Positions 3,960 to 29,800 of a DNA stretch of 33,389 nt are shown here, one piece after another; the first letter of the stretch is position 1; each line of letters begins with the position of its first letter. The notes under the pieces are model-generated. The model did not search any database. It was not told the DNA's origin and saw only the letters and a list, made by a program, of their open reading frames with translations. The stretch is from a virus, in the IMG/VR virus record IMGVR_UViG_3300044535_001124, positions 1-33,389 of that record. One strand, given 5' to 3'. The translations under genes and the position numbers were made by a program.

Positions 3960-4546
3960 CCACTATTTTTTGTGCGCATATATTTTGCAATCATATGCAT
4001 GATCGCTTGGTGCACATCTTCAGCGGCTTCATACTCATTTATATCTACGTGTAAAGAAATATCGGCCAGCTCTCGAGCTTTGCCACCATCGAATCCTGTA
4101 AGAGCAATAGTCTTCATTTTCAATGACTTAGCGGTTTCAATTGCCTTGACAACATTCGGAGAATTGCCACTCGAAGAAATGGCCACGAGTACATCACCTT
4201 CTTGGCCAAGAGCATCGAGTTGGAATGAGTAAACATCATCATAAGAGATATCATTTGAGATAGCTGTCATGAGTGGAATATTTGCTGCCAAAGAAATAAC
4301 TCTTGGGCGCAGTCCACCTTTCTTACATCCCTTGGTATAGTCACATGCCCAATGCTGAGCAATAGAAGCAGATGCGCCGTTACCAATAGTATAAATGTTA
4401 TTCCTATAATTGGAAATGCTTGTCATCCAAATAAGCTCTGCGGCTTTTTTAAATTCATCATGATCGATACTTGCAAAGCCAATATTAATTAGGCCCATGT
4501 GATCGAATATAATATCAGTCTCGATAGACAACTCTTGCTCCTTCAT
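3956..4546 (-). CDS. gmhA: SIS-domain phosphosugar isomerase, GmhA-like (sedoheptulose-7-phosphate isomerase)
   Basis: A 196-residue SIS-domain protein. GmhA converts sedoheptulose 7-phosphate to D-glycero-manno-heptose 7-phosphate, the first step toward nucleotide-heptose. The phosphosugar-binding loop YTIGNGASAS is at residues 52-61, and AISSSGNSPNVVKAI is the second SIS motif. A His-containing C-terminal helix (EDVHQAIMHMIAKYM) matches the catalytic histidine region. Where E. coli GmhA has a glutamate after HFAE, this protein reads HWACD, so the position may be aspartate. The first 32 bases overlap the end of the kinase gene. With the kinase beside it, the GmhA call is good, but substrate specificity is inferred. 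Confidence 0.85.
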   Translation of the reverse strand: MKEQELSIETDIIFDHMGLINIGFASIDHDEFKKAAELIWMTSISNYRNNIYTIGNGASASIAQHWACDYTKGCKKGGLRPRVISLAANIPLMTAISNDISYDDVYSFQLDALGQEGDVLVAISSSGNSPNVVKAIETAKSLKMKTIALTGFDGGKARELADISLHVDINEYEAAEDVHQAIMHMIAKYMRTKNSG

Positions 4547-5456
4547 GTGAGATGCCTACATCAAGGCATGTTCTGTCTGAGAATTCTTGGCGGATTGCAC
4601 TCTTTGAATCTGTGATTGCTAGCATATATCCACCACCGCCAGCACCGAGCAACTTAGCTCCATAAGCACCAGCAGACTTACAACGTTCGTACATAATATC
4701 TATATCGCTATTAGAGATCTCATTACTCATCTGCTTCTTCAGAATCCATGCCGAATCAAGCAATCTACCATAGTCGAATGGATTTACAAGTTGAGTGCCT
4801 TGCATATCTGCCATACGAGCTAGTTCACGAATGGTAAATGTCTTTGCTTCAAAGTTAATGGTATCAAGGATTTTGGATGCATGATGCTCTACATTGGTAG
4901 GAATCAATATCATATAGTTCTCGATTCCCATTGAGTCTAGGCGGTTTACATCAACACGGCCGCTGTTCGAATACTCGATGTAGTTCATGCCGCCAAATGC
5001 AGATGCAAACTGATCTTGCATACCGATCTTCCAACCGCACATGTCAATTTCAATATTGCAAGCAGTCTTCGCAATAAGATAAGGGTTTACGTATTCATAA
5101 CCAAGATATGCTGACAAAGCCTTAATCAGAGCACAAGTAAAAGCAGACGATCCACCGAGACCGTTGCCGATCGTAGGGATGTCTGCGAATGATGTGATCT
5201 CGATGTTGGATTTGATGCCAAAGAACTTCAGTGCGTTACGAACGATTTCATTTTGAATATCGTCTACATCAGTAACGAGTTCTTGCTTTGAATAGGAAAC
5301 TTTGATATGATCGTGTGGTGTATGCATGACTGCTACGTAGACATACGCGTTGATAGCAGTCGAGATGGTTGCTCCACCCCATTGCAAAAAGTGGGCGGGG
5401 ATATCACTACCCCCGCCGAAAAAACTAACTCTCAGTGGTGCTTTGGCCAAGATCAC
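4515..5456 (-). CDS. hddA: GHMP-family sugar kinase, HddA-like heptose 7-phosphate kinase
   Basis: A 313-residue GHMP kinase, most like HddA, which phosphorylates D-glycero-D-manno-heptose 7-phosphate at C1. The family N-terminus KAPLRVSFFGGGSD (residues 5-18) and the ATP-binding loop GNGLGGSSAFTC (97-108) are clear, and the third motif KLLGAGGGGYML is near residue 275. The start is GTG at 5456, preceded by GAAGGA at about 8 bases and overlapping the end of the glycosyltransferase gene by 32 bases. Linkage to a GmhA-like isomerase strongly supports a heptose role. A fucose- or galacto-kinase-like activity is the alternative. Confidence 0.88.
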   Translation of the reverse strand: MILAKAPLRVSFFGGGSDIPAHFLQWGGATISTAINAYVYVAVMHTPHDHIKVSYSKQELVTDVDDIQNEIVRNALKFFGIKSNIEITSFADIPTIGNGLGGSSAFTCALIKALSAYLGYEYVNPYLIAKTACNIEIDMCGWKIGMQDQFASAFGGMNYIEYSNSGRVDVNRLDSMGIENYMILIPTNVEHHASKILDTINFEAKTFTIRELARMADMQGTQLVNPFDYGRLLDSAWILKKQMSNEISNSDIDIMYERCKSAGAYGAKLLGAGGGGYMLAITDSKSAIRQEFSDRTCLDVGISHEGARVVYRD

Positions 5457-6417
5457 GATGTTGTTCCTTCAATGATGCAATTAGTCCCTTCCACTTCGGC
5501 ATGATTGACTCCCAAGAGAATCGAGTATCAGCATAAGCTTTTACGAATGTAAGAAGGTTTGTCAAGTCGTTGTTCTGTACGTTTTCAATAGCATACATTA
5601 AAGTATGAGCAAAGATGTTGGCATGAAGATTCATGTCTTCATGATCACCATCATACTGTACAGTCAACCCACCCGACGTGTCAGCCAAAGCAGAGAAGTT
5701 AGGATGAACCGCCAAACAACCAGCTGACATAGCTTCAATAAGTGACCTGCACGAAGTTTCCGGCCAGATACAAGGATATGCAAAGATGTGGGCTTTTTGA
5801 TATGCGGCACGAACTGTCTCCTGGTCTGCCCAACCGTGATAGTTGATTTGTGGATGTTCTCTCATTTTCTGGAAAAGTGGTTCGTATTGCTTATCACGAC
5901 CTTCCCAGTTCTTACCATAGATACCAAACGAACTAAAGACATCTAGTTCGATGTTTGGATACTTTTCTGCGAGAGCGCAAAAAACAGGAACCAGAATCTC
6001 CAGTCCACGATGTGGTGTTGATGTATAAATGAGGCGTATCTTGTCCTTTGGTTTCTCAACGAGTGGGATAGGTTCGACACCTGTTTCAATAACGCACGAT
6101 TGGTGGCTATATGGAACTCCAAGATAGTCGCGATACTGCTGATATTGCCAGTTAGAGCTGAAGACCAACTTGTGGAAGCGATCTCGAGAAGCTGGATCTT
6201 TAAGGTGTTCAGCCTCCGGATCGAGAGGTAGGTCGTGAAGATGATAGATTCTAATTCGTTCTGGATCAAGTTCGCGGACGCGAGCAGTGATAATTTGGAT
6301 GCCATCGAGTTCATCACGAGTAAGTCGGTGGAAGAGATTTCGAGTGGTAAGTTCTGTTCCACCATTCGACTCCTTGTTCAATTCGTTCAATTCAATTAGT
6401 TCTTGATTATTCATCAT
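5425..6417 (-). CDS. GT4-type (GT-B fold) glycosyltransferase
   Basis: A 330-residue protein with the C-terminal half of a group 1 (GT4) glycosyltransferase. The acid pair of the EX7E motif is seen in PETSCRSLIEAMSAGC, which binds the nucleotide-sugar donor. IRLIYTSTPHRGLEILVPVF marks the start of the C-terminal Rossmann lobe. The N-terminal acceptor domain (NGGTELTTRNLFHRL, then IYHLHDLPLDPEAEH) is shorter than in typical GT4 enzymes. It overlaps the HAD gene upstream and the kinase gene downstream, so all four sugar genes are probably made together. The acceptor (host LPS, phage virion or DNA) cannot be read from sequence. Confidence 0.87.
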   Translation of the reverse strand: MMNNQELIELNELNKESNGGTELTTRNLFHRLTRDELDGIQIITARVRELDPERIRIYHLHDLPLDPEAEHLKDPASRDRFHKLVFSSNWQYQQYRDYLGVPYSHQSCVIETGVEPIPLVEKPKDKIRLIYTSTPHRGLEILVPVFCALAEKYPNIELDVFSSFGIYGKNWEGRDKQYEPLFQKMREHPQINYHGWADQETVRAAYQKAHIFAYPCIWPETSCRSLIEAMSAGCLAVHPNFSALADTSGGLTVQYDGDHEDMNLHANIFAHTLMYAIENVQNNDLTNLLTFVKAYADTRFSWESIMPKWKGLIASLKEQHRDLGQSTTES

Positions 6418-6748
6418 GTTCTCCGAGATGTGCTTGATCTACGTCAAAAAAGAATTCAAAATCACTGAGAGCTTTGTCATCAATCCATATGTCATAGGAA
6501 GGTTTTCCTAGACGTACTTCATGGAATTTGCAACCCCAATCATTTAGTTGTTTTGTGGTAAGTTCGGTCCAGTCGATTCCAGACCCTGAGCCACGGGCAG
6601 TCCAATAGATGATGGTGTGCCCTTGATCGTATAGTTTATTTATCTTGTCAATACGCTGCGGGAATGGATCGGAAAGATCGTAGCGATGCTTTCCATTCAC
6701 AAACGGAGTCATACATATAGTCTGATCGATGTCTACCATGTAGATCAT
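6407..6748 (-). CDS. Small HAD-superfamily phosphatase
   Basis: A compact 113-residue capless HAD protein. Motif I is VDIDQT with nucleophile Asp6 and acid Asp8; motif II is the Thr of IYWTARG; the acidic motif IV is DIWIDDKA. It lacks the zinc loop and length (about 180 aa) of GmhB, yet it sits directly before a glycosyltransferase, a heptose kinase and GmhA, where a 1,7-bisphosphate phosphatase would be expected. Similar small HAD proteins occur in capsule and LPS loci. The GmhB-like role is inference. Confidence 0.8.
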   Translation of the reverse strand: MIYMVDIDQTICMTPFVNGKHRYDLSDPFPQRIDKINKLYDQGHTIIYWTARGSGSGIDWTELTTKQLNDWGCKFHEVRLGKPSYDIWIDDKALSDFEFFFDVDQAHLGEHDE

Positions 6749-22368: not shown

Positions 22369-22799
22369 TTCATTGAAGCCCTTAACATCCAAGCGTGTTT
22401 TTTATGTTGGTCAAGTCTTTCTTCAATGAAGTTTACTAAACCGTTCTCACCATACTTATCAGCTTCATTTCTTGCACGTTGTAAAGAAGCAAGAACAATA
22501 GCATTATCAGAGAACAATGTTGATACCATTTGCTCTGGCTTAATAATAAGAACTTCATCTCTAATATTTGTCAGTTCACTAAATCTGCTAAATGCGGCTG
22601 GAGCATAAACGTTCTGAGCACGAATTTCTTCGGCGAACTGGTCAATAGCTCCACCAACCTCTTCGTAGATCTTACCAAAGAAGTCATGGTACATTGCAAA
22701 CATAGGACCTTCTACATTCCAGTGATAGTTTTGAGCTTTCACATAGAATGCGTAAGTATCTGCAAATGCGATCTTAAGAGGGTTTGTCACTTCTTCCAT
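22365..22799 (-). CDS. dps: Dps-family mini-ferritin (DNA protection/iron storage)
   Basis: A Dps protein; ATG at 22799 shares TAATG with the preceding stop, and ATG at 22817 gives six more residues. Counting from 22817 (150 aa), the ferroxidase ligands are His32 (NYHWNVEG), His44 (MYHDFF), Asp59 and Glu63 (AIDQFAEEI), with canonical spacings 12, 15 and 4. The fifth usual ligand, an Asp four residues after the second His, is Gly48. Dps oxidises iron with peroxide and shields DNA. Virus-encoded copies are uncommon; being in the late block it may protect replicated or packaged DNA. Confidence 0.9.
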   Translation of the reverse strand: MEEVTNPLKIAFADTYAFYVKAQNYHWNVEGPMFAMYHDFFGKIYEEVGGAIDQFAEEIRAQNVYAPAAFSRFSELTNIRDEVLIIKPEQMVSTLFSDNAIVLASLQRARNEADKYGENGLVNFIEERLDQHKKHAWMLRASMK

Positions 22800-23098
22800 T
22801 ATGTTCTGCATCTCCATCTACGAAGTGACATTGCCTTACGTGTAGGACGTCCCTTCTCATCTTTCATTGGACCCGGCATGCCACCCATACGAGCACAGAA
22901 AGATTTGCGTCTTTTAGCATCCTTCGATCCAGGCTTGGCTTTACCAGTTACAGCCGTCTGAATCTTCGATCCAGGATTATCTCTACGAACTGCTTCAATG
23001 CCTTTTTGAGTCATGCCTGCGCCAGATTCTGTAGATCTATAGTGACCCTTAGAATCTTCGCCACGAGCTTCTAAAACAAATTCTTTAAACCGTATCAT
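22799..23098 (-). CDS. DUF6321-type basic protein with capsid-targeting-like N-terminus
   Basis: From ATG at 23098 (GGGAAG just upstream; ATG at 23110 also in frame) the protein begins MIRFKEFVLEARGEDSKG, closely resembling the T4 capsid-targeting peptide (MKTYQEFIAEA) with a VLE/A cleavage-like site. The rest, NPGSKIQTAVTGKAKPGSKD and AKRRKSFCARMGGMPGPMKD, is the DUF6321 pattern, strongly basic. It is a good candidate for an internal head protein that binds DNA. It overlaps the upstream gene by 14 bases. Confidence 0.82.
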   Translation of the reverse strand: MIRFKEFVLEARGEDSKGHYRSTESGAGMTQKGIEAVRRDNPGSKIQTAVTGKAKPGSKDAKRRKSFCARMGGMPGPMKDEKGRPTRKAMSLRRWRCRT

Positions 23099-24665: not shown

Positions 24666-24673
24666 TATTTATA
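24666..24673 (-). promoter_or_regulatory. T4-late-like promoter TATAAATA
   Basis: Exact TATAAATA in the gap between the 447-residue structural gene and the large basic gene, about 60 bases before the ATG at 24605. An exact match in an intergenic gap of a T4-like genome is good evidence for late transcription. Confidence 0.7.
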
Positions 24674-24685
24674 ATAAAGAAACTC

Positions 24686-26029
24686 TTATCGACTAACTTC
24701 TTCCCAATCTACTGAACCAAAAATATCACCGCCATTAGTACTTGCAGACGCAACGAGAGATAATTCAAATGGTGCACCTGTTAGTCCATTGCGCTCAAGT
24801 TGGAATTTAAATAGGGCTTCTTTCAAAATATCAACAGATGTTGAACCTTGGTTTGAACCACTTGTATAACCTGATGCTAAGATTCTACCACCGGTGTATG
24901 CGCCGCCTCCAATTTTATATTCAACTGCACTATCTGTGCCAGCATCAACCCAAGTATCACCTGCAGAAGTTCCGCTTGCTCTAACTTGCCAGTTATAGTT
25001 CACGTTGTTTGTAATACCAAGGACAGAAAGTGCGGTTAGAATAACAATAGCATCTAATCTATCTGGGCTAGCTTTCAGTCTAATAGAAATAATATTGTAA
25101 TACGTTCCTGCGATTGGTAGATCAACAGGTGTTGTAATAGGAACAGTGGCTGCTTGCTGCAAACCACGCAATTCATAACCGCCCTCAGAGACTACAGATG
25201 AACATACTTGCTTGAGAGTTGAATTGCTAGCAGTGATTCCAGTGTTCTTAATCTCATATCTAAGAGGAAGTGATGCGGTTGTAATATACGTAGAAGTAAT
25301 TAGGTTGGCATGGTGGAATGAATGGCAGTGAATTAACTTGCCATCAATTACAAAACCACAACGAACCGTACCAAGACCAAGCCACTCAATATCCATCCAG
25401 AAAATTTGAGCTTTTGACAGATCTAAAGTGATATTTGAAGGACACGAACCGAGTCCTTGACCAGGAATATTTGCCGATGGTCCTAATAGGTTATCTTGAT
25501 TCCAGTCAGCCTGAGCAATACGTGTTTCAACAAGCTCGCCGGTAGTATAAGATCTCTCTACAAAATAAGCCGTTGTTCCATCTATTTCAAAATAGATTCC
25601 ATTTTGTGCTCCAAAATAACCAATACGCTGGCGCAGGTTTGCTTTAGGAGGTTCGGCAACAAATGTATTTAAAACAAAAAGAGACTTACCGGGTTGGTAC
25701 GAACACACCTTGGTTGTTTCACGGATAATCTCTGCATTAGCGGTTGTAGGAAGGTTAAGATTAACTAAACCTTCATTTGCACTATGTGCGTATGTTGTAC
25801 CGGCTGTGTTTGACGTGCTCCAAAGATTGTTGTCTTTATATCTGTGAGACGAATCAAAAAGAGTTAATGGCAACGACATTCTTGCACGGCCAAACGCATC
25901 GACAGCAACACCTGATGGATTTGCTGGACCCACTAGGTTTCCGTATGGATCTGCCAACATGACAGCTTCAAAAAGCGTTACGTTATGTGGTTGTTTCCAT
26001 TCGTGAGAGTCAATACGCCATTGAGCCAT
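24686..26029 (-). CDS. Virion structural protein, 447 aa
   Basis: A beta-rich protein starting MAQWRIDSHEWKQP, with the opening MAQW shared with the 281-residue structural protein. FGRARMSLPLTLFDSSHRYK is a pattern of phage structural proteins that I recall. The middle includes QIFWMDIEWLGLGTVRCGFV and IDGKLIHCHSFHHAN, resembling a lectin- or jelly-roll-like fold; the end has VDILKEALFKFQLERN. Translation is coupled to the upstream nucleotidyltransferase by TAATG. A tail, neck or head-fibre component is likely; the exact role cannot be read. Confidence 0.82.
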   Translation of the reverse strand: MAQWRIDSHEWKQPHNVTLFEAVMLADPYGNLVGPANPSGVAVDAFGRARMSLPLTLFDSSHRYKDNNLWSTSNTAGTTYAHSANEGLVNLNLPTTANAEIIRETTKVCSYQPGKSLFVLNTFVAEPPKANLRQRIGYFGAQNGIYFEIDGTTAYFVERSYTTGELVETRIAQADWNQDNLLGPSANIPGQGLGSCPSNITLDLSKAQIFWMDIEWLGLGTVRCGFVIDGKLIHCHSFHHANLITSTYITTASLPLRYEIKNTGITASNSTLKQVCSSVVSEGGYELRGLQQAATVPITTPVDLPIAGTYYNIISIRLKASPDRLDAIVILTALSVLGITNNVNYNWQVRASGTSAGDTWVDAGTDSAVEYKIGGGAYTGGRILASGYTSGSNQGSTSVDILKEALFKFQLERNGLTGAPFELSLVASASTNGGDIFGSVDWEEVSR

Positions 26030-26640
26030 TAATTAATCCAGTTCTTAAATCTTGCAATGAACGACTCGTGAATACCCATGCCTTTACGAACATCGTGGTA
26101 CAGTTCATCTTTATGTGCTTTGTTCATTCCTGATGGTGCCATCTTATGGAATGATTCTTTATCACCAGCAGTAGCATGCTTACGCATTGCAGTACCAGAA
26201 GCAGATTCAATTCCACCTCCGCCTTCTTTGCGTTCACCGCCTACTGACTTGACTTTGATGCTCTTGAAATTATAGTGTCCATGTCTCCCTTCAGTTCCAT
26301 TGTACTTGTGGAGCAAGTTATGAAACTCATGGACACGATCTGAGCCAACATGCATAGTTACATGTGAGTAACCTGCCTTGTGTAGCTTAGACATCTGATG
26401 AAGAAGTGTAGGATGTTCTTTTGTCATAGCCTCGACATGTGAACCTTTGACAGCACGAGAAAGATGCTTTACCTTTTGCTCTGGAGTAAGAGGATTCTTC
26501 TTGGCATCATGAGATCCAGTAGTAAGAATCTTATGGTCTGCACCTTCCTTCTTAGCAGCATTCATGACATGCTTGACAACCATCTCGTGGCCAGCATGCA
26601 CAGGATTGAATCTTCCTTGAGTGATATGAATTGACTTCAT
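26029..26640 (-). CDS. HIGH-type nucleotidyltransferase (cytidylyltransferase-like)
   Basis: A 203-residue nucleotidyltransferase. TQGRFNPVHAGHEMV (residues 7-21) is the HxGH motif (His15, His18) that binds the NTP phosphates, and ESASGTAMRKHA is the ISGT-like second motif. The Lys/His-rich middle and the C-terminus ESFIARFKNWIN, which carries an FKxW motif, are unusual. The closest architecture is NadM/NMNAT-like or CTP:phospho-substrate transferase; the substrate is not readable. It is coupled by ATGA to the ligase-like gene upstream and by TAATG to the structural gene downstream. Confidence 0.85.
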   Translation of the reverse strand: MKSIHITQGRFNPVHAGHEMVVKHVMNAAKKEGADHKILTTGSHDAKKNPLTPEQKVKHLSRAVKGSHVEAMTKEHPTLLHQMSKLHKAGYSHVTMHVGSDRVHEFHNLLHKYNGTEGRHGHYNFKSIKVKSVGGERKEGGGGIESASGTAMRKHATAGDKESFHKMAPSGMNKAHKDELYHDVRKGMGIHESFIARFKNWIN

Positions 26641-27806
26641 AGTGCTTTGTCCCTATTAAAGTTAGCAGCTGAGAACTCAGCACGATCGACAATCTTAGTA
26701 GGACGATTATGTCTTACTACTACAAATCCTTCAGGCTTAGATTTCTTACCACTAATACTGTGGCCGAACTCAGCGTGGCTTGAGAGAGTGTTAGCCAATA
26801 CATCCTTGGCTTTTTGTAGATGGCCATGCATCTGAAGAACACGTTCAAAATGGCCACGATTGCGTTGAATGTGAGCTACATCACTTTCCATAGCAGCCGT
26901 TTTCATACCTTTGGCTTTATCTGTCTTGACAGAATCAATCTTCTTTTGATGAGACTTAGCAAGGTGAGCCATAAACTCGTTCACATTAGGCTTGGTGCCA
27001 GTACGAACTGTATGGTTGATATAAGTCTTTAGAGGAATACGATGACTCTCAATAGCAGTATGTGTTTGTGGACCGGTTTTAGCATGAAGCTTAGCAGCCG
27101 CTGCCATATGCTTTACAAACTTAGTTTGATGCTGAGGCTTATAATCAATACCAGACATATCATGCTCAGTTGAAATCAAATGAACGTCTTTATGAAGACC
27201 AAACTCATCAAGATGCGGAGCATACTCAGCTTTCATATCCTCAAGATTCTTACCATTGTACTTGGTATGAACAGCAACACCAATTCTAGATCTGGTTGCA
27301 GCTTTACCATGAGGTGAATTCTTGTCAGCGGAATATGTAATGGTGTTTGGTGTAAAGTGAATCTTGTTACCAGACGCATGCACATCGTTTGGTGTGTGCA
27401 TGATATCACCTTGGAACACACCTTTCTTTGGAGTCACCTTAGGCAAATGATCAAGAGCAGCCTTTAGCTTTTCAACCAGACCAGGAGCATGCCCGTGGTT
27501 ACGTTGAATATCTTCGTGGCTGTAATTGATCTTAGGATTCTTATTGAAAGCCGACTTTGAAGCTACAAAGAACTTGCCGGTTTCTGGATGGCGACCAAAC
27601 ACAACAGAAGGCGAACCATCATACTTCATGGTTACCTTAGTGGCATTTTCTTTACCAGTTAGTCTATCATGCACATCTTTGAGATTATGATAAGCATGCG
27701 AGAAACCCTCACCGCCTGCATTAATCACATGATCTTCTGCATGCTCGAGGTGCTTCAGCTTTTCTTCGCTGGCTTCTTCTGTAAGGAAATTTTTGAATGC
27801 TGTCAT
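26637..27806 (-). CDS. DUF6267-type covalent nucleotidyltransferase (ligase-like)
   Basis: A 389-residue protein. Ligase-superfamily motifs appear in order: motif I KYDGSP with Lys61 as likely adenylated lysine, VFQGDIM (about 130-136) as motif III, RIGVAVHTKY (about 174-183) near IIIa, PEGFVVVR (358-365) as motif IV and PTKIVDR (369-375) as motif V. The N-terminus MTAFKNFLTEEASEE matches a capsid-targeting-like peptide. I recall cyanophage homologues labelled DUF6267. The protein may join or cap nucleic-acid ends, or adenylylate another substrate. It is coupled to the HAD and HIGH genes by ATGA overlaps. Confidence 0.8.
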   Translation of the reverse strand: MTAFKNFLTEEASEEKLKHLEHAEDHVINAGGEGFSHAYHNLKDVHDRLTGKENATKVTMKYDGSPSVVFGRHPETGKFFVASKSAFNKNPKINYSHEDIQRNHGHAPGLVEKLKAALDHLPKVTPKKGVFQGDIMHTPNDVHASGNKIHFTPNTITYSADKNSPHGKAATRSRIGVAVHTKYNGKNLEDMKAEYAPHLDEFGLHKDVHLISTEHDMSGIDYKPQHQTKFVKHMAAAAKLHAKTGPQTHTAIESHRIPLKTYINHTVRTGTKPNVNEFMAHLAKSHQKKIDSVKTDKAKGMKTAAMESDVAHIQRNRGHFERVLQMHGHLQKAKDVLANTLSSHAEFGHSISGKKSKPEGFVVVRHNRPTKIVDRAEFSAANFNRDKAL

Positions 27807-28408
27807 TTGATTGTCTTTATCGATCCATCTGGTTTCACGAAATAAGCTTCGAATTTAACATTAGGGTATTCCTTTTGGAGTTCAAGGAATGCCTTTAGGT
27901 TACTCATAGCATCGTCGTACAAACGAGTTTTAGTGTAGTTTTGAGTATTTAGGTATTTGCGAAACACAACTTTCTTTGCTTCGGCAGGTGAATCCATTCC
28001 TAGATTACCTGAACGCTCAACGTGCATTGAGTCGATTGGAAGGCCATGATCTCGAAAAGTCTGGAGGAACATGTTTTTATCATCAAAGTCTGCTCGAGCC
28101 GTTACAATGATTGCTTGGCTATGAGGATTCTTTTTGGCTTTGACAATTGCCTTTGCCTTTTCGATCATTCTTACAATCGGTGTAGAAGTTTTACGAAACA
28201 CTTCAGCAGATTTAAATTCTCTAAAGTCGTATTCTTCACCATCCTTGCGCTTGTAGGTATTGAATTCCTGGTTGTCCAACATTCGAACAACCTTGCCATC
28301 CTTTACTACAGCGACTTTGGCTTTGGTATGAAAGAGCGTCTCATCGATATCAAAGATCGTGAGAGTTCCGGAGCCTATAAAATTTTTAAATCTGTTTATT
28401 TTTTTCAT
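27803..28408 (-). CDS. HAD-superfamily phosphatase, possibly polynucleotide 3'-phosphatase-like
   Basis: A 201-residue HAD protein. Motif I is LTIFDIDETLF (Asp20, Asp22), motif II the Thr of IIVTARADF, and motif IV TRLYDDAMSNL. An insertion after motif I acts as a cap. The N-terminus MKKINRFKNF carries the FKxF motif. No Shine-Dalgarno is present, and the -10 box of a sigma70-like promoter ends 6 bases before the ATG, so the mRNA may be leaderless. Coupling to a ligase-like gene suggests end healing, but a metabolic sugar or nucleotide phosphatase is equally possible. Confidence 0.82.
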   Translation of the reverse strand: MKKINRFKNFIGSGTLTIFDIDETLFHTKAKVAVVKDGKVVRMLDNQEFNTYKRKDGEEYDFREFKSAEVFRKTSTPIVRMIEKAKAIVKAKKNPHSQAIIVTARADFDDKNMFLQTFRDHGLPIDSMHVERSGNLGMDSPAEAKKVVFRKYLNTQNYTKTRLYDDAMSNLKAFLELQKEYPNVKFEAYFVKPDGSIKTIK

Positions 28409-28414
28409 ATTATC

Positions 28415-28443
28415 TTTATATCTTATTTTGAAAAAAATGTCAA
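28415..28443 (-). promoter_or_regulatory. sigma70-like promoter, may produce a leaderless mRNA
   Basis: TTGACA at 28443-28438, 17-base spacer, TATAAA at 28420-28415. The ATG of the HAD gene (28408) is exactly where the start of transcription is expected. No Shine-Dalgarno is visible. Confidence 0.65.
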
Positions 28444-28449
28444 CCTATT

Positions 28450-29184
28450 TTAGCGTAAAAACGGATTTTTTTTCGCTGTTCCTGGCTTGACCGAATATTT
28501 GCTATCAGGCATTTTAGTGATCTTAATCTCGGCCTGAACTTCATAAAATTGTGAACGAGTCGATACACGAACTTTAAAGTCACCTTGTCCAGATAAAACT
28601 GGAATGGCGGTGTCAAGCCCAAGCGGATTGCCTTTACCAATCATATAAAAATCGTCTCCAGCTTGCATATAGTATGCTGGTTCTCTCTTGCCTTCTAAAT
28701 AGTGACGCGTCACAAGTGCACCTAGATTCATACCAGGTTCATTGGCAATATAACGATTAATGTTTGATTGAGAGAAATAAGATTTCATAACATGCAATGG
28801 AACAGCACCAGATTCATTTAACCCACCTTTGCTGGTAGGGATCTTAATCACTTTTTCAGGAATACCAGAGTATTTAGAAATGTCTTTAATGAATTGCTTT
28901 GCTTTAGCTGATGAGTTTAAAATCTTAACTGCTTCGGCTGCAGCTGGAGTTTTATATGTTGTTTGCCACTTACCATCACTGTAAAATACACGAGGATTAG
29001 ATAGATTGTCGGTGTGCGACATCTTAACTTCTACCCAAACTTTATCAACGCGTTTGTTGTTATATGAAGTAATTTTAACATCAGATAAATCAGTAGCACC
29101 AGGAGGGCGCGTAGCTGTAACACCAGGAATACTATTGATATTGTCGGCTACGTCTTTTTCGTATTTGTCAGATGCTGCACTCAT
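28450..29184 (-). CDS. PD-(D/E)XK-like nuclease candidate, conserved phage protein
   Basis: A 244-residue protein. Residues Glu9, Asp35 (TDLSDVKIT) and Glu52-x-Lys54 (VWVEVKMS) are spaced as in the restriction-endonuclease-like core. Downstream regions YIANEPGMNLGALVTRHYLE and YYMQAGDDFYMIGKGNPLGL are conserved in my memory of cyanophage homologues lacking a named function. The gene starts after the terminator at 29211-29236 with a GATAAATA late-like motif at 29201-29208 and GGAG before ATG. It could process phage or host DNA, or act in packaging. Confidence 0.75.
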   Translation of the reverse strand: MSAASDKYEKDVADNINSIPGVTATRPPGATDLSDVKITSYNNKRVDKVWVEVKMSHTDNLSNPRVFYSDGKWQTTYKTPAAAEAVKILNSSAKAKQFIKDISKYSGIPEKVIKIPTSKGGLNESGAVPLHVMKSYFSQSNINRYIANEPGMNLGALVTRHYLEGKREPAYYMQAGDDFYMIGKGNPLGLDTAIPVLSGQGDFKVRVSTRSQFYEVQAEIKITKMPDSKYSVKPGTAKKNPFLR

Positions 29185-29200
29185 AAAAACTCCTTCAATC

Positions 29201-29208
29201 TATTTATC
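29201..29208 (-). promoter_or_regulatory. T4-late-like promoter motif GATAAATA
   Basis: GATAAATA (T4 late consensus TATAAATA, first base different) immediately after the terminator and 17 bases before the nuclease gene start. Confidence 0.5.
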
Positions 29209-29242: not shown

Positions 29243-29800
29243 CTACGCTGCTATTTGAAACCAGTCTGGCACCGGTCGTTTAGTCCATGCCATCTTGAAT
29301 CGATCCTGTTTGGTCTGATAGAACTTACGATAAGATCCTACGATGTCCTTGTAGTCCATGCACTCAGGATTGGCCTTCATGGCCAGTGGTTGTGGAGTCT
29401 TATAGCCAACTGGAATATTACGAGGCGGAGACTTAAGAGCCTCACGAAGCAACGTATCAGTGGCATGAACCTTGCCATAACGATACGTGTATTCGTCACA
29501 TAGAGCTACAAAATGGACATAATGCCAGTTGTAGTTGTTGTTGCTCTCGGCCGTCCAGATGGTACAAGGGTGATGCATATGCACTGCCTTGTAGAACGTA
29601 TCTTCGCGCTGGTCTGGCAAGACCCAGTACTTTGACATGGTCTTGCCAGACTTTGATGGCTTACGAGTTTCCACGCCATCAAGCATACGATGAACTGTCG
29701 AAAGCATTTGAGCACTTTCGACAATCATCTTGACAACGTGCTTGTCACATTGTAGTTGAGCTGCAACTACAGGGTCATGATCTAGAACAAATAAATTCAT
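29243..29800 (-). CDS. Conserved phage protein, possibly pyrimidine-dimer glycosylase-like
   Basis: A 185-residue protein. The N-terminus MNLFVLDHDPVVAAQLQCDK continues to HVVKMIVESAQMLSTVHRML, a well-conserved pattern in T4-like phages. Some databases relate this to the endonuclease V (DenV) superfamily, but DenV itself has a different start, so I treat that as weak. A C-terminal HxxH-like and aromatic region (NYNWHYVHFVALCDEYTYRY) follows. The gene ends just before a terminator. Repair or base-excision function is a hypothesis. Confidence 0.72.
   Translation of the reverse strand: MNLFVLDHDPVVAAQLQCDKHVVKMIVESAQMLSTVHRMLDGVETRKPSKSGKTMSKYWVLPDQREDTFYKAVHMHHPCTIWTAESNNNYNWHYVHFVALCDEYTYRYGKVHATDTLLREALKSPPRNIPVGYKTPQPLAMKANPECMDYKDIVGSYRKFYQTKQDRFKMAWTKRPVPDWFQIAA

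Follow-up and report, generated by a model that had tools for sequence, protein, structure and literature searches.

How are nucleic acid ends healed and joined in marine T4-like phages? The question is raised by a gene cassette in the IMG/VR virus record IMGVR_UViG_3300044535_001124, a linear viral record of 33,389 bases that was analysed at its full length (hereafter, the window). Cyanomyoviruses do not carry the DNA ligase gene of T4, and either their distant homologues have gone unidentified or these phages manage without them (PMC2984593). RNase H is reportedly missing from them as well, and they may degrade host DNA by a method not yet described (PMC2984593). In the window, a protein of the DUF6267 family with ligase-like motifs is encoded between a HAD phosphatase and a HIGH-superfamily nucleotidyltransferase (NTase), behind a putative restriction-type nuclease. 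We propose that, in marine T4-like phages, these genes form a module that heals and seals breaks and is attached to an exchangeable restriction-type nuclease, a reading to which we assign a probability of roughly 0.55.

The central protein, P0002, matches Pfam family DUF6267 (PF19782) over residues 18-387 of 389 (E=1.9e-100; 337 bits against a cut-off of 27) and is assigned to phrog_455 in PHROGs. Both families are without assigned function, and our literature search found no paper naming DUF6267. Orthologues are present in 471 phage records, which belong mostly to cyanophages and also to pelagiphage HTVC008M, Methylophilales phages and a few others. P0002 carries the motifs K61-Y-D-G, F-Q-G-D (residues 131-134), E359-G-F-V-V and K371-I-V-D. 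Across 62 DUF6267 sequences, down to about 31% identity, residues K61, D63, G64, K84, Q132, D134, P358, E359, G360, K371, V373, D374 and R375 are invariant. The motifs are thus as first described in an initial annotation of the window made from its sequence alone, and the conservation of the residues named there exceeds chance. Of note, K61-x-D-G, K84, QGD, PEG and K371 follow the motif order of RNA and DNA ligases. Motif I has the KxDG form with an invariant lysine, as in the ligase/capping superfamily. QGD, PEG(Y/F)V and K371 do not vary either and follow the sequence of motifs III to V, although motif III is atypical and motif V lacks its second lysine. The closest arrangement is that of T4 RNA ligase 1 (Rnl1, RnlA/gp63), which shows KxDG, K, acidic/QGD, EGYVAV and K at similar spacing, so that its K99, K119, E227 and K240 correspond to K61, K84, E359 and K371 of DUF6267. 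An ordered ligase signature matched 57 of the 62 DUF6267 sequences, 0 of 1,874 neighbouring open reading frames (ORFs), 0 of 4,000 shuffles and, among the 135 ORFs of T4, RNA ligase 1 alone; this signature was composed with both families in view and is partly circular, which makes it supportive rather than independent.

The predicted structure leans in the same direction. The AlphaFold2 model of P0002 is confident (mean predicted local distance difference test, pLDDT, 89.3) and displays a strand-rich core that carries the motifs and a helical insert, some 120 residues long, that precedes motif IV. In a Foldseek search of the PDB, ligases or ligase-containing complexes took the first eight places and the majority of the first 25, including human DNA ligases III and IV, the LigA adenylation domain, TbREL1, T4 Rnl2 and Pnkp1/Rnl/Hen1. 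In BFVD, RNA ligase 2, RNA ligase and NAD-dependent DNA ligase lead the named matches after DUF6267 itself. Moreover, the two best local hhalign alignments to relatives of T4 Rnl1 place K61 opposite K99, and E359 and K371 opposite E227 and K240. A nucleotidyltransferase fold and an active lysine are supported but not proven. DUF6267 is very probably a covalent nucleotidyltransferase and, with less assurance, probably a polynucleotide ligase.

This assignment gains interest from the ligase content of the carrier phages. Profiles PF01068, PF01653, PF09414 and PF09511 gave no match in eight DUF6267-bearing reference Kyanoviridae genomes (HTVC008M, Melnitz-3, S-MbCM7, S-SM1, C48C1, P-SSM5, ACG-2014f and S-PM2); this includes the DUF6267 proteins themselves, which the T4 RNA ligase 1 family profile PF09511 does not detect. 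Conversely, T4, phiN3 and GAP32 have ligases and no DUF6267. Among 15 uncultured DUF6267 records, most of which are fragments, a DNA ligase was found in one. DUF6267 is a candidate for the distant ligase homologue of cyanomyoviruses. The ligase-like nature of the 389-residue protein, as proposed in the initial annotation, is supported by motif conservation, fold ranking and the lack of another ligase in the reference Kyanoviridae carriers.

The genes around DUF6267 are arranged as follows, in the order of transcription; the minus strand holds nearly all genes of the window.

29243-29800: P0006, a member of phrog_624, first in the transcription order around the cassette
28450-29184, minus strand: P0004, 244 residues, a predicted HhaI/HinP1I-like PD-(D/E)XK nuclease in a hypervariable slot
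27803-28408, minus strand: P0003, 201 residues, a HAD phosphatase of the T4 Pnkp type without the kinase domain
26637-27806, minus strand: P0002, 389 residues, DUF6267, a predicted covalent nucleotidyltransferase or polynucleotide ligase with K61 as putative active lysine
27774-27806, minus strand: the N-terminus of P0002, MTAFKNFLTEE, which resembles the T4 capsid-targeting sequence and is disordered in the model
26029-26640, minus strand: P0001, 203 residues, a HIGH-superfamily NTase, orthologue of cyanophage T4-GC190
24686-26029, minus strand: P0005, 447 residues, a virion structural protein (phrog_1645, E=5.4e-141)

The four ORFs reported between 26029 and 29184 on the minus strand were confirmed, as was the coupling of the last three by four-base ATGA overlaps, located at 27803-27806 (HAD/DUF6267) and 26637-26640 (DUF6267/NTase). 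The NTase stop and the P0005 start share one base (TAATG at 26029), and 41 bp separate the nuclease from the HAD gene.

The strongest association of DUF6267 is with the NTase. P0001 matches PF01467 (CTP_transf_like; 23.5 bits, cut-off 21) and phrog_3041 (E=3.8e-46), and carries H15-A-G-H18. In 222 aligned sequences, G9-R10, N12-P13, G17-H18 and S148/M152-R153 are conserved; together with the profile match, the (H/T)xGH and SxTxxR-type motifs identify P0001 as a HIGH nucleotidyltransferase. A more specific identity as nicotinamide mononucleotide (NMN) adenylyltransferase (NMNAT) was rejected, the best NCBIfam score being 25.7 bits against a cut-off of 127. A HIGH NTase lies downstream of DUF6267, without exception, in the 140 viral loci whose downstream sequence extends for 2.5 kb or more. 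In S-PM2, the two are a single 591-residue protein, and phrog_455 covers both DUF6267 and the NTase. The pair is therefore near universal, and the possibility that these genes would be scattered and never together in neighbouring genomes failed. The NTase T4-GC190 is itself a cyanophage core gene (PMC3037559), and S-CREM2 has an NTase with no DUF6267 beside it. In the older S-PM2 record AJ630128 (locus L082, 4986-6765), the fusion is split into two coding sequences; this is probably a sequencing or natural frameshift, because the deletion-mutant record LN828717 shows one ORF of 591 codons. The C-terminal extensions of cyanophage NTases match the small family phrog_4808, whose annotation as ribonucleotide reductase is probably a misannotation.

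On the other hand, the end-healing partner varies between lineages. In P0003, the DxDxT motif reads D20-I-D-E-T24, and D20, D22, T24, T103, K145/K146 and D165/D166 are at least 95% conserved among 44 relatives, giving the DxDxT, the motif II Thr, the motif III Lys and the motif IV DD of HAD phosphatases. The protein matches phrog_415, polynucleotide kinase, with E=4.8e-7 (Pfam HAD_SAK_1, just E=0.075), and consists of the HAD part alone, unlike the two-domain T4 Pnkp, which joins kinase and HAD in one protein. In most relatives of the window, a HAD gene lies upstream of DUF6267; in loci L073 and L081 it is located at another position close to the cassette. Pelagiphages carry instead a P-loop kinase (Zeta toxin/AAA_33, similar to polynucleotide kinase, PNK) between DUF6267 and the NTase, which scores with the PNK (phrog_505) and L-seryl-tRNA kinase (PSTK) families and is fused to the NTase in locus L060. 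HAD was found in 58 loci and the kinase in 51, with no locus holding both. HAD and kinase correspond to the two parts of T4 Pnkp, in agreement with a role in end healing. The HAD partner of the initial annotation is confined to relatives of the window and is not a general feature.

P0004 occupies the position directly upstream. E9, D35 and E52-x-K54 are invariant in 46 relatives and make up the E...D...(E/S)xK core of PD-(D/E)XK nucleases. The top PDB matches of its AlphaFold2 model (pLDDT 94.7) were HhaI (E=1.7e-3, probability 0.54), HinP1I, SwaI and HindIII, with template modelling (TM) scores below 0.3. Pfam, PADLOC and NCBIfam gave no match for P0004, nor did a profile search of the PDB give anything significant. 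PADLOC also reported no defence system among the cassette proteins, the kinase part of L060 alone giving weak ATPase matches. Neither P0003 nor P0004 had a tblastn match in 50,697 phage records, and therefore their distribution rests on uncultured contigs. Across 224 loci, the gene directly upstream of DUF6267, or of HAD and DUF6267, falls into 27 unrelated clusters, a few of which are ordinary, such as helicase, MazG and glycosyltransferase genes. In 12 of 19 slot clusters (one doubtful), a D-x(n)-[EDSQ]-x-K core flanked by hydrophobic residues is conserved, whereas none of the 26 control clusters drawn from the same gene neighbourhoods has it (Fisher p=1.8e-6). This comparison uses clusters with at least two different sequences, because inclusion of single-sequence clusters gave a high control rate (18/66). 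The core can also be seen by eye in slot clusters 3, 8, 22 and 109. Where enough flank was available, DUF6267 lay downstream in 45 of 56 P0004-type loci. Hence, the nuclease noted in the initial annotation does precede the cassette here, but it is just one of many unrelated nucleases found in the same slot. In L287 (4001-6093) and L281, a P0004-type nuclease is followed by an NTase with no DUF6267 between them, and this NTase has a capsid-targeting-like N-terminus, MKNFKDFLTE.

A plausible course of events can be drawn from these elements. The slot nuclease, here of predicted HhaI/HinP1I-like fold, would cut DNA, most plausibly that of the host or of a competing phage. The HAD phosphatase, or the P-loop kinase in other lineages, may then restore 3'-OH and 5'-phosphate ends. 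DUF6267 would self-adenylylate at K61, which by established ligase chemistry would carry adenosine monophosphate, and would seal the ends, filling the missing ligase role; motifs and fold class support this step, and the sealed substrate may be DNA or RNA. In the least certain step, the NTase, in complex with DUF6267, might supply a nucleotide or transfer it to a phosphorylated partner, as in remaking NAD+ from NMN or activating an end. The initial annotation regarded the cassette as a shared nucleic-acid end-processing or adenylylation unit. Gene order, coupling, conservation, association and fusion are observed, whereas we infer, as did that annotation for the shared pathway, that all four proteins act together, and likewise the ligation and its substrate.

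Several observations weigh against the proposal, beside the partial circularity of the signature. Motif III of DUF6267 is atypical, with QGD in place of the usual Glu form, and the second lysine of motif V (KxK) is a valine. No fold match outside the family is individually significant (none has E <0.001; the best in the PDB has E=0.49 and a TM score of about 0.2). No significance was reached when the DUF6267 profile was aligned by hhalign with the T4 Rnl2, T4 DNA ligase and T4 Rnl1 families, the probabilities being only about 1-3%, and a profile search of the PDB with DUF6267 returned nothing significant. Three carriers (EniLVp02, XG4 and the record of L078) have a classical DNA ligase beside DUF6267. 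The link between nuclease and DUF6267 is not obligatory, because no DUF6267 was found downstream in 11 of the 56 P0004-type loci; in two of these 11, inspected closely, an NTase-type gene lies directly behind the nuclease. Finally, cyanophage loci have neither HAD nor kinase nearby, and the mutual exclusion of these two genes may be phylogenetic, since they belong to different lineages.

For one cassette protein, the NTase, orthologues have been found in virions. T4-GC190 was detected by mass spectrometry in S-SM1 virions (PMC3037559), and cytidylyltransferases orthologous to the NTase were detected likewise in virions of S-SZBM1 (PMC9146016) and S-CREM2 (PMC10665884). The DUF6267 protein of S-SZBM1 (SSZBM1_141) is absent from the listed virion proteins, whereas the neighbouring NTase is present. 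The published S-CREM2 (OR473000) virion proteome also includes ORF 12, annotated as a CRISPR-Cas9 nuclease and represented by 28 unique peptides (PMC10665884), which is unusual in a virion. In the window lineage, DUF6267 begins with M-x-x-F-x-x-F-[IL]-x-E, similar to the MKTYQEFIAEA of T4 internal proteins bearing a capsid-targeting sequence (PMC3012670). F..F[ILV]..E is found at this N-terminus in 72 of 81 relatives of the window lineage; in further phages, an N-terminus of this kind is instead borne by the slot nuclease, HAD or NTase. The strict pattern occurs in 2 of 45 window ORFs; among T4 proteins it retrieves those with MKTYQEFIAEA and hardly any others. We rejected capsid targeting as a feature of these phages in general, as the strict pattern is found in 0 of 164 HTVC008M ORFs and in no cyanophage DUF6267, and SSZBM1_141 is unlisted. 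Packaging of the cassette proteins in the virion is a hypothesis only. The sole other window ORF with such an N-terminus encodes a 99-residue protein (22799-23098, minus strand) that starts MIRFKEFVLEARGED; towards its C-terminus it matches the ends of several large phage proteins without assigned function (phrog_10346, phrog_3477). Expression late in infection, as suggested in the initial annotation, found no support in promoters: the late promoter TATAAATA occurs once in the window, at 24666, below the chance mean, and not upstream of the cassette, and ATAAATA at 29201-29207, upstream of the nuclease, is at chance level. The virion association of NTase orthologues is a hint of another kind.

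These virion data could mean that the NTase is a packaged cofactor enzyme, for example NMNAT-like, and that its neighbours are late or virion-associated passengers sharing no reaction with it. The weak NMNAT similarity given above and the S-CREM2 NTase without adjoining DUF6267 would fit, but we consider this improbable in view of the DUF6267-NTase fusion and the 140/140 adjacency. Furthermore, packaging cannot explain the pairing, because SSZBM1_141 is missing from a virion list that includes its NTase neighbour. A capsid-delivered weapon-and-repair set, with the exchangeable nuclease destroying host or rival DNA and a DUF6267-NTase complex, representing a previously undescribed ligase family, protecting or resealing the phage genome, would account at once for the missing ligase of cyanophages and for their undescribed nuclease for host DNA degradation; it strikes us as a doubtful, though less remote, extension.

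The constancy of the DUF6267-NTase core while nuclease families change in one slot would also suit a restriction-modification-like arrangement, in which both enzymes put a constant, nucleotide-derived mark on the ends or bases of phage DNA and a changing cutter attacks unmarked DNA. Under this scheme the substrate of the kinase or phosphatase could be a small-molecule precursor, and the L287 locus, where the NTase directly follows a P0004-type nuclease, would be understandable. However, the cassette has no known DNA-modifying domain, its HAD relates best to the Pnkp phosphatase, and chemistry at ends agrees better with the ligase motifs and the fold ranking. We know of no modified DNA in these phages, and we regard marking as unlikely. 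Much the same standing, and certainly no better, is held by RNA repair, in which the module, like T4 Pnkp and Rnl1, would heal and seal RNA, such as tRNA, that host ribotoxins have cleaved, with the slot nuclease an unrelated neighbour. The proximity of the DUF6267 motif order to T4 Rnl1, the Pnkp-like HAD and the PNK and PSTK scores of the pelagiphage kinase argue for it. Nevertheless, the T4 Rnl1-family profile leaves DUF6267 undetected, HAD and kinase never occur together near DUF6267, so that neither lineage has the full Pnkp set, and a consistently nuclease-like slot is unexpected of chance neighbours. Break healing and sealing coupled to an exchangeable nuclease remains our preferred reading.

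Compared with known systems, the arrangement of the cassette matches none that we found, and its families are individually listed without known function or under generic names. It shares with T4 Rnl1 and Pnkp (PseT) a HAD of the 3'-phosphatase type beside a ligase-like protein, and differs from that usual pair, as the initial annotation held, in having HAD and kinase in separate lineages and in the added HIGH NTase and restriction-type nuclease. DUF6267 further departs from Rnl1 in the lack of a PF09511 match and in the helical insert, which lies between motifs IIIa and IV. Bacterial Pnkp1/Rnl/Hen1, whose Rnl is among the DUF6267 fold matches, likewise brings end-healing and ligase-like enzymes into one module; however, no Hen1 methyltransferase was found in the cassette, the ligase family is another one, and that system has neither the nuclease nor the HIGH NTase. 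P0004 resembles HhaI and HinP1I in its E...D...ExK core and in fold, these being its best PDB matches, yet it is only about 11-12% identical to them, is phage-encoded in a slot of many nuclease families, and comes without a cognate methyltransferase in the cassette. The L060 fusion of a HIGH NTase to a P-loop kinase recalls the layout of NadR, whereas the NTase falls far below the NCBIfam NMNAT cut-offs, the kinase scores with Zeta-toxin/AAA_33, PSTK and PNK, and the partner is ligase-like, unlike in NadR/NadM. The N-terminal tag resembles that of T4 internal proteins, but is missing from cyanophage DUF6267 and has no strict match in HTVC008M. Hundreds of sequenced cyanophages, as well as pelagiphages, encode DUF6267 and its NTase partner, and neither protein has an assigned function. 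A ligase-like core gene beside a hypervariable nuclease slot bears on the ligase gap and on the host-DNA-degradation gap alike, and if the ligase reading is true, DUF6267 would add a new enzyme family to the toolbox for joining nucleic acids.

Other features were observed near the cassettes and elsewhere in the window. An EF-hand-like module, DVDNDGDxxxSDKYLxxRRK, is present in cassette-near proteins of L225 (4790-5707) and L215 (2648-3226). On the minus strand of the window, a glycosyltransferase gene (5425-6417) adjoins an ORF without assigned function (4515-5456) and is accompanied by a second small HAD-like protein (6407-6748) that matches phosphoheptose isomerase and polynucleotide kinase PHROGs, which suggests that 4515-6748 is a sugar-modification cluster.

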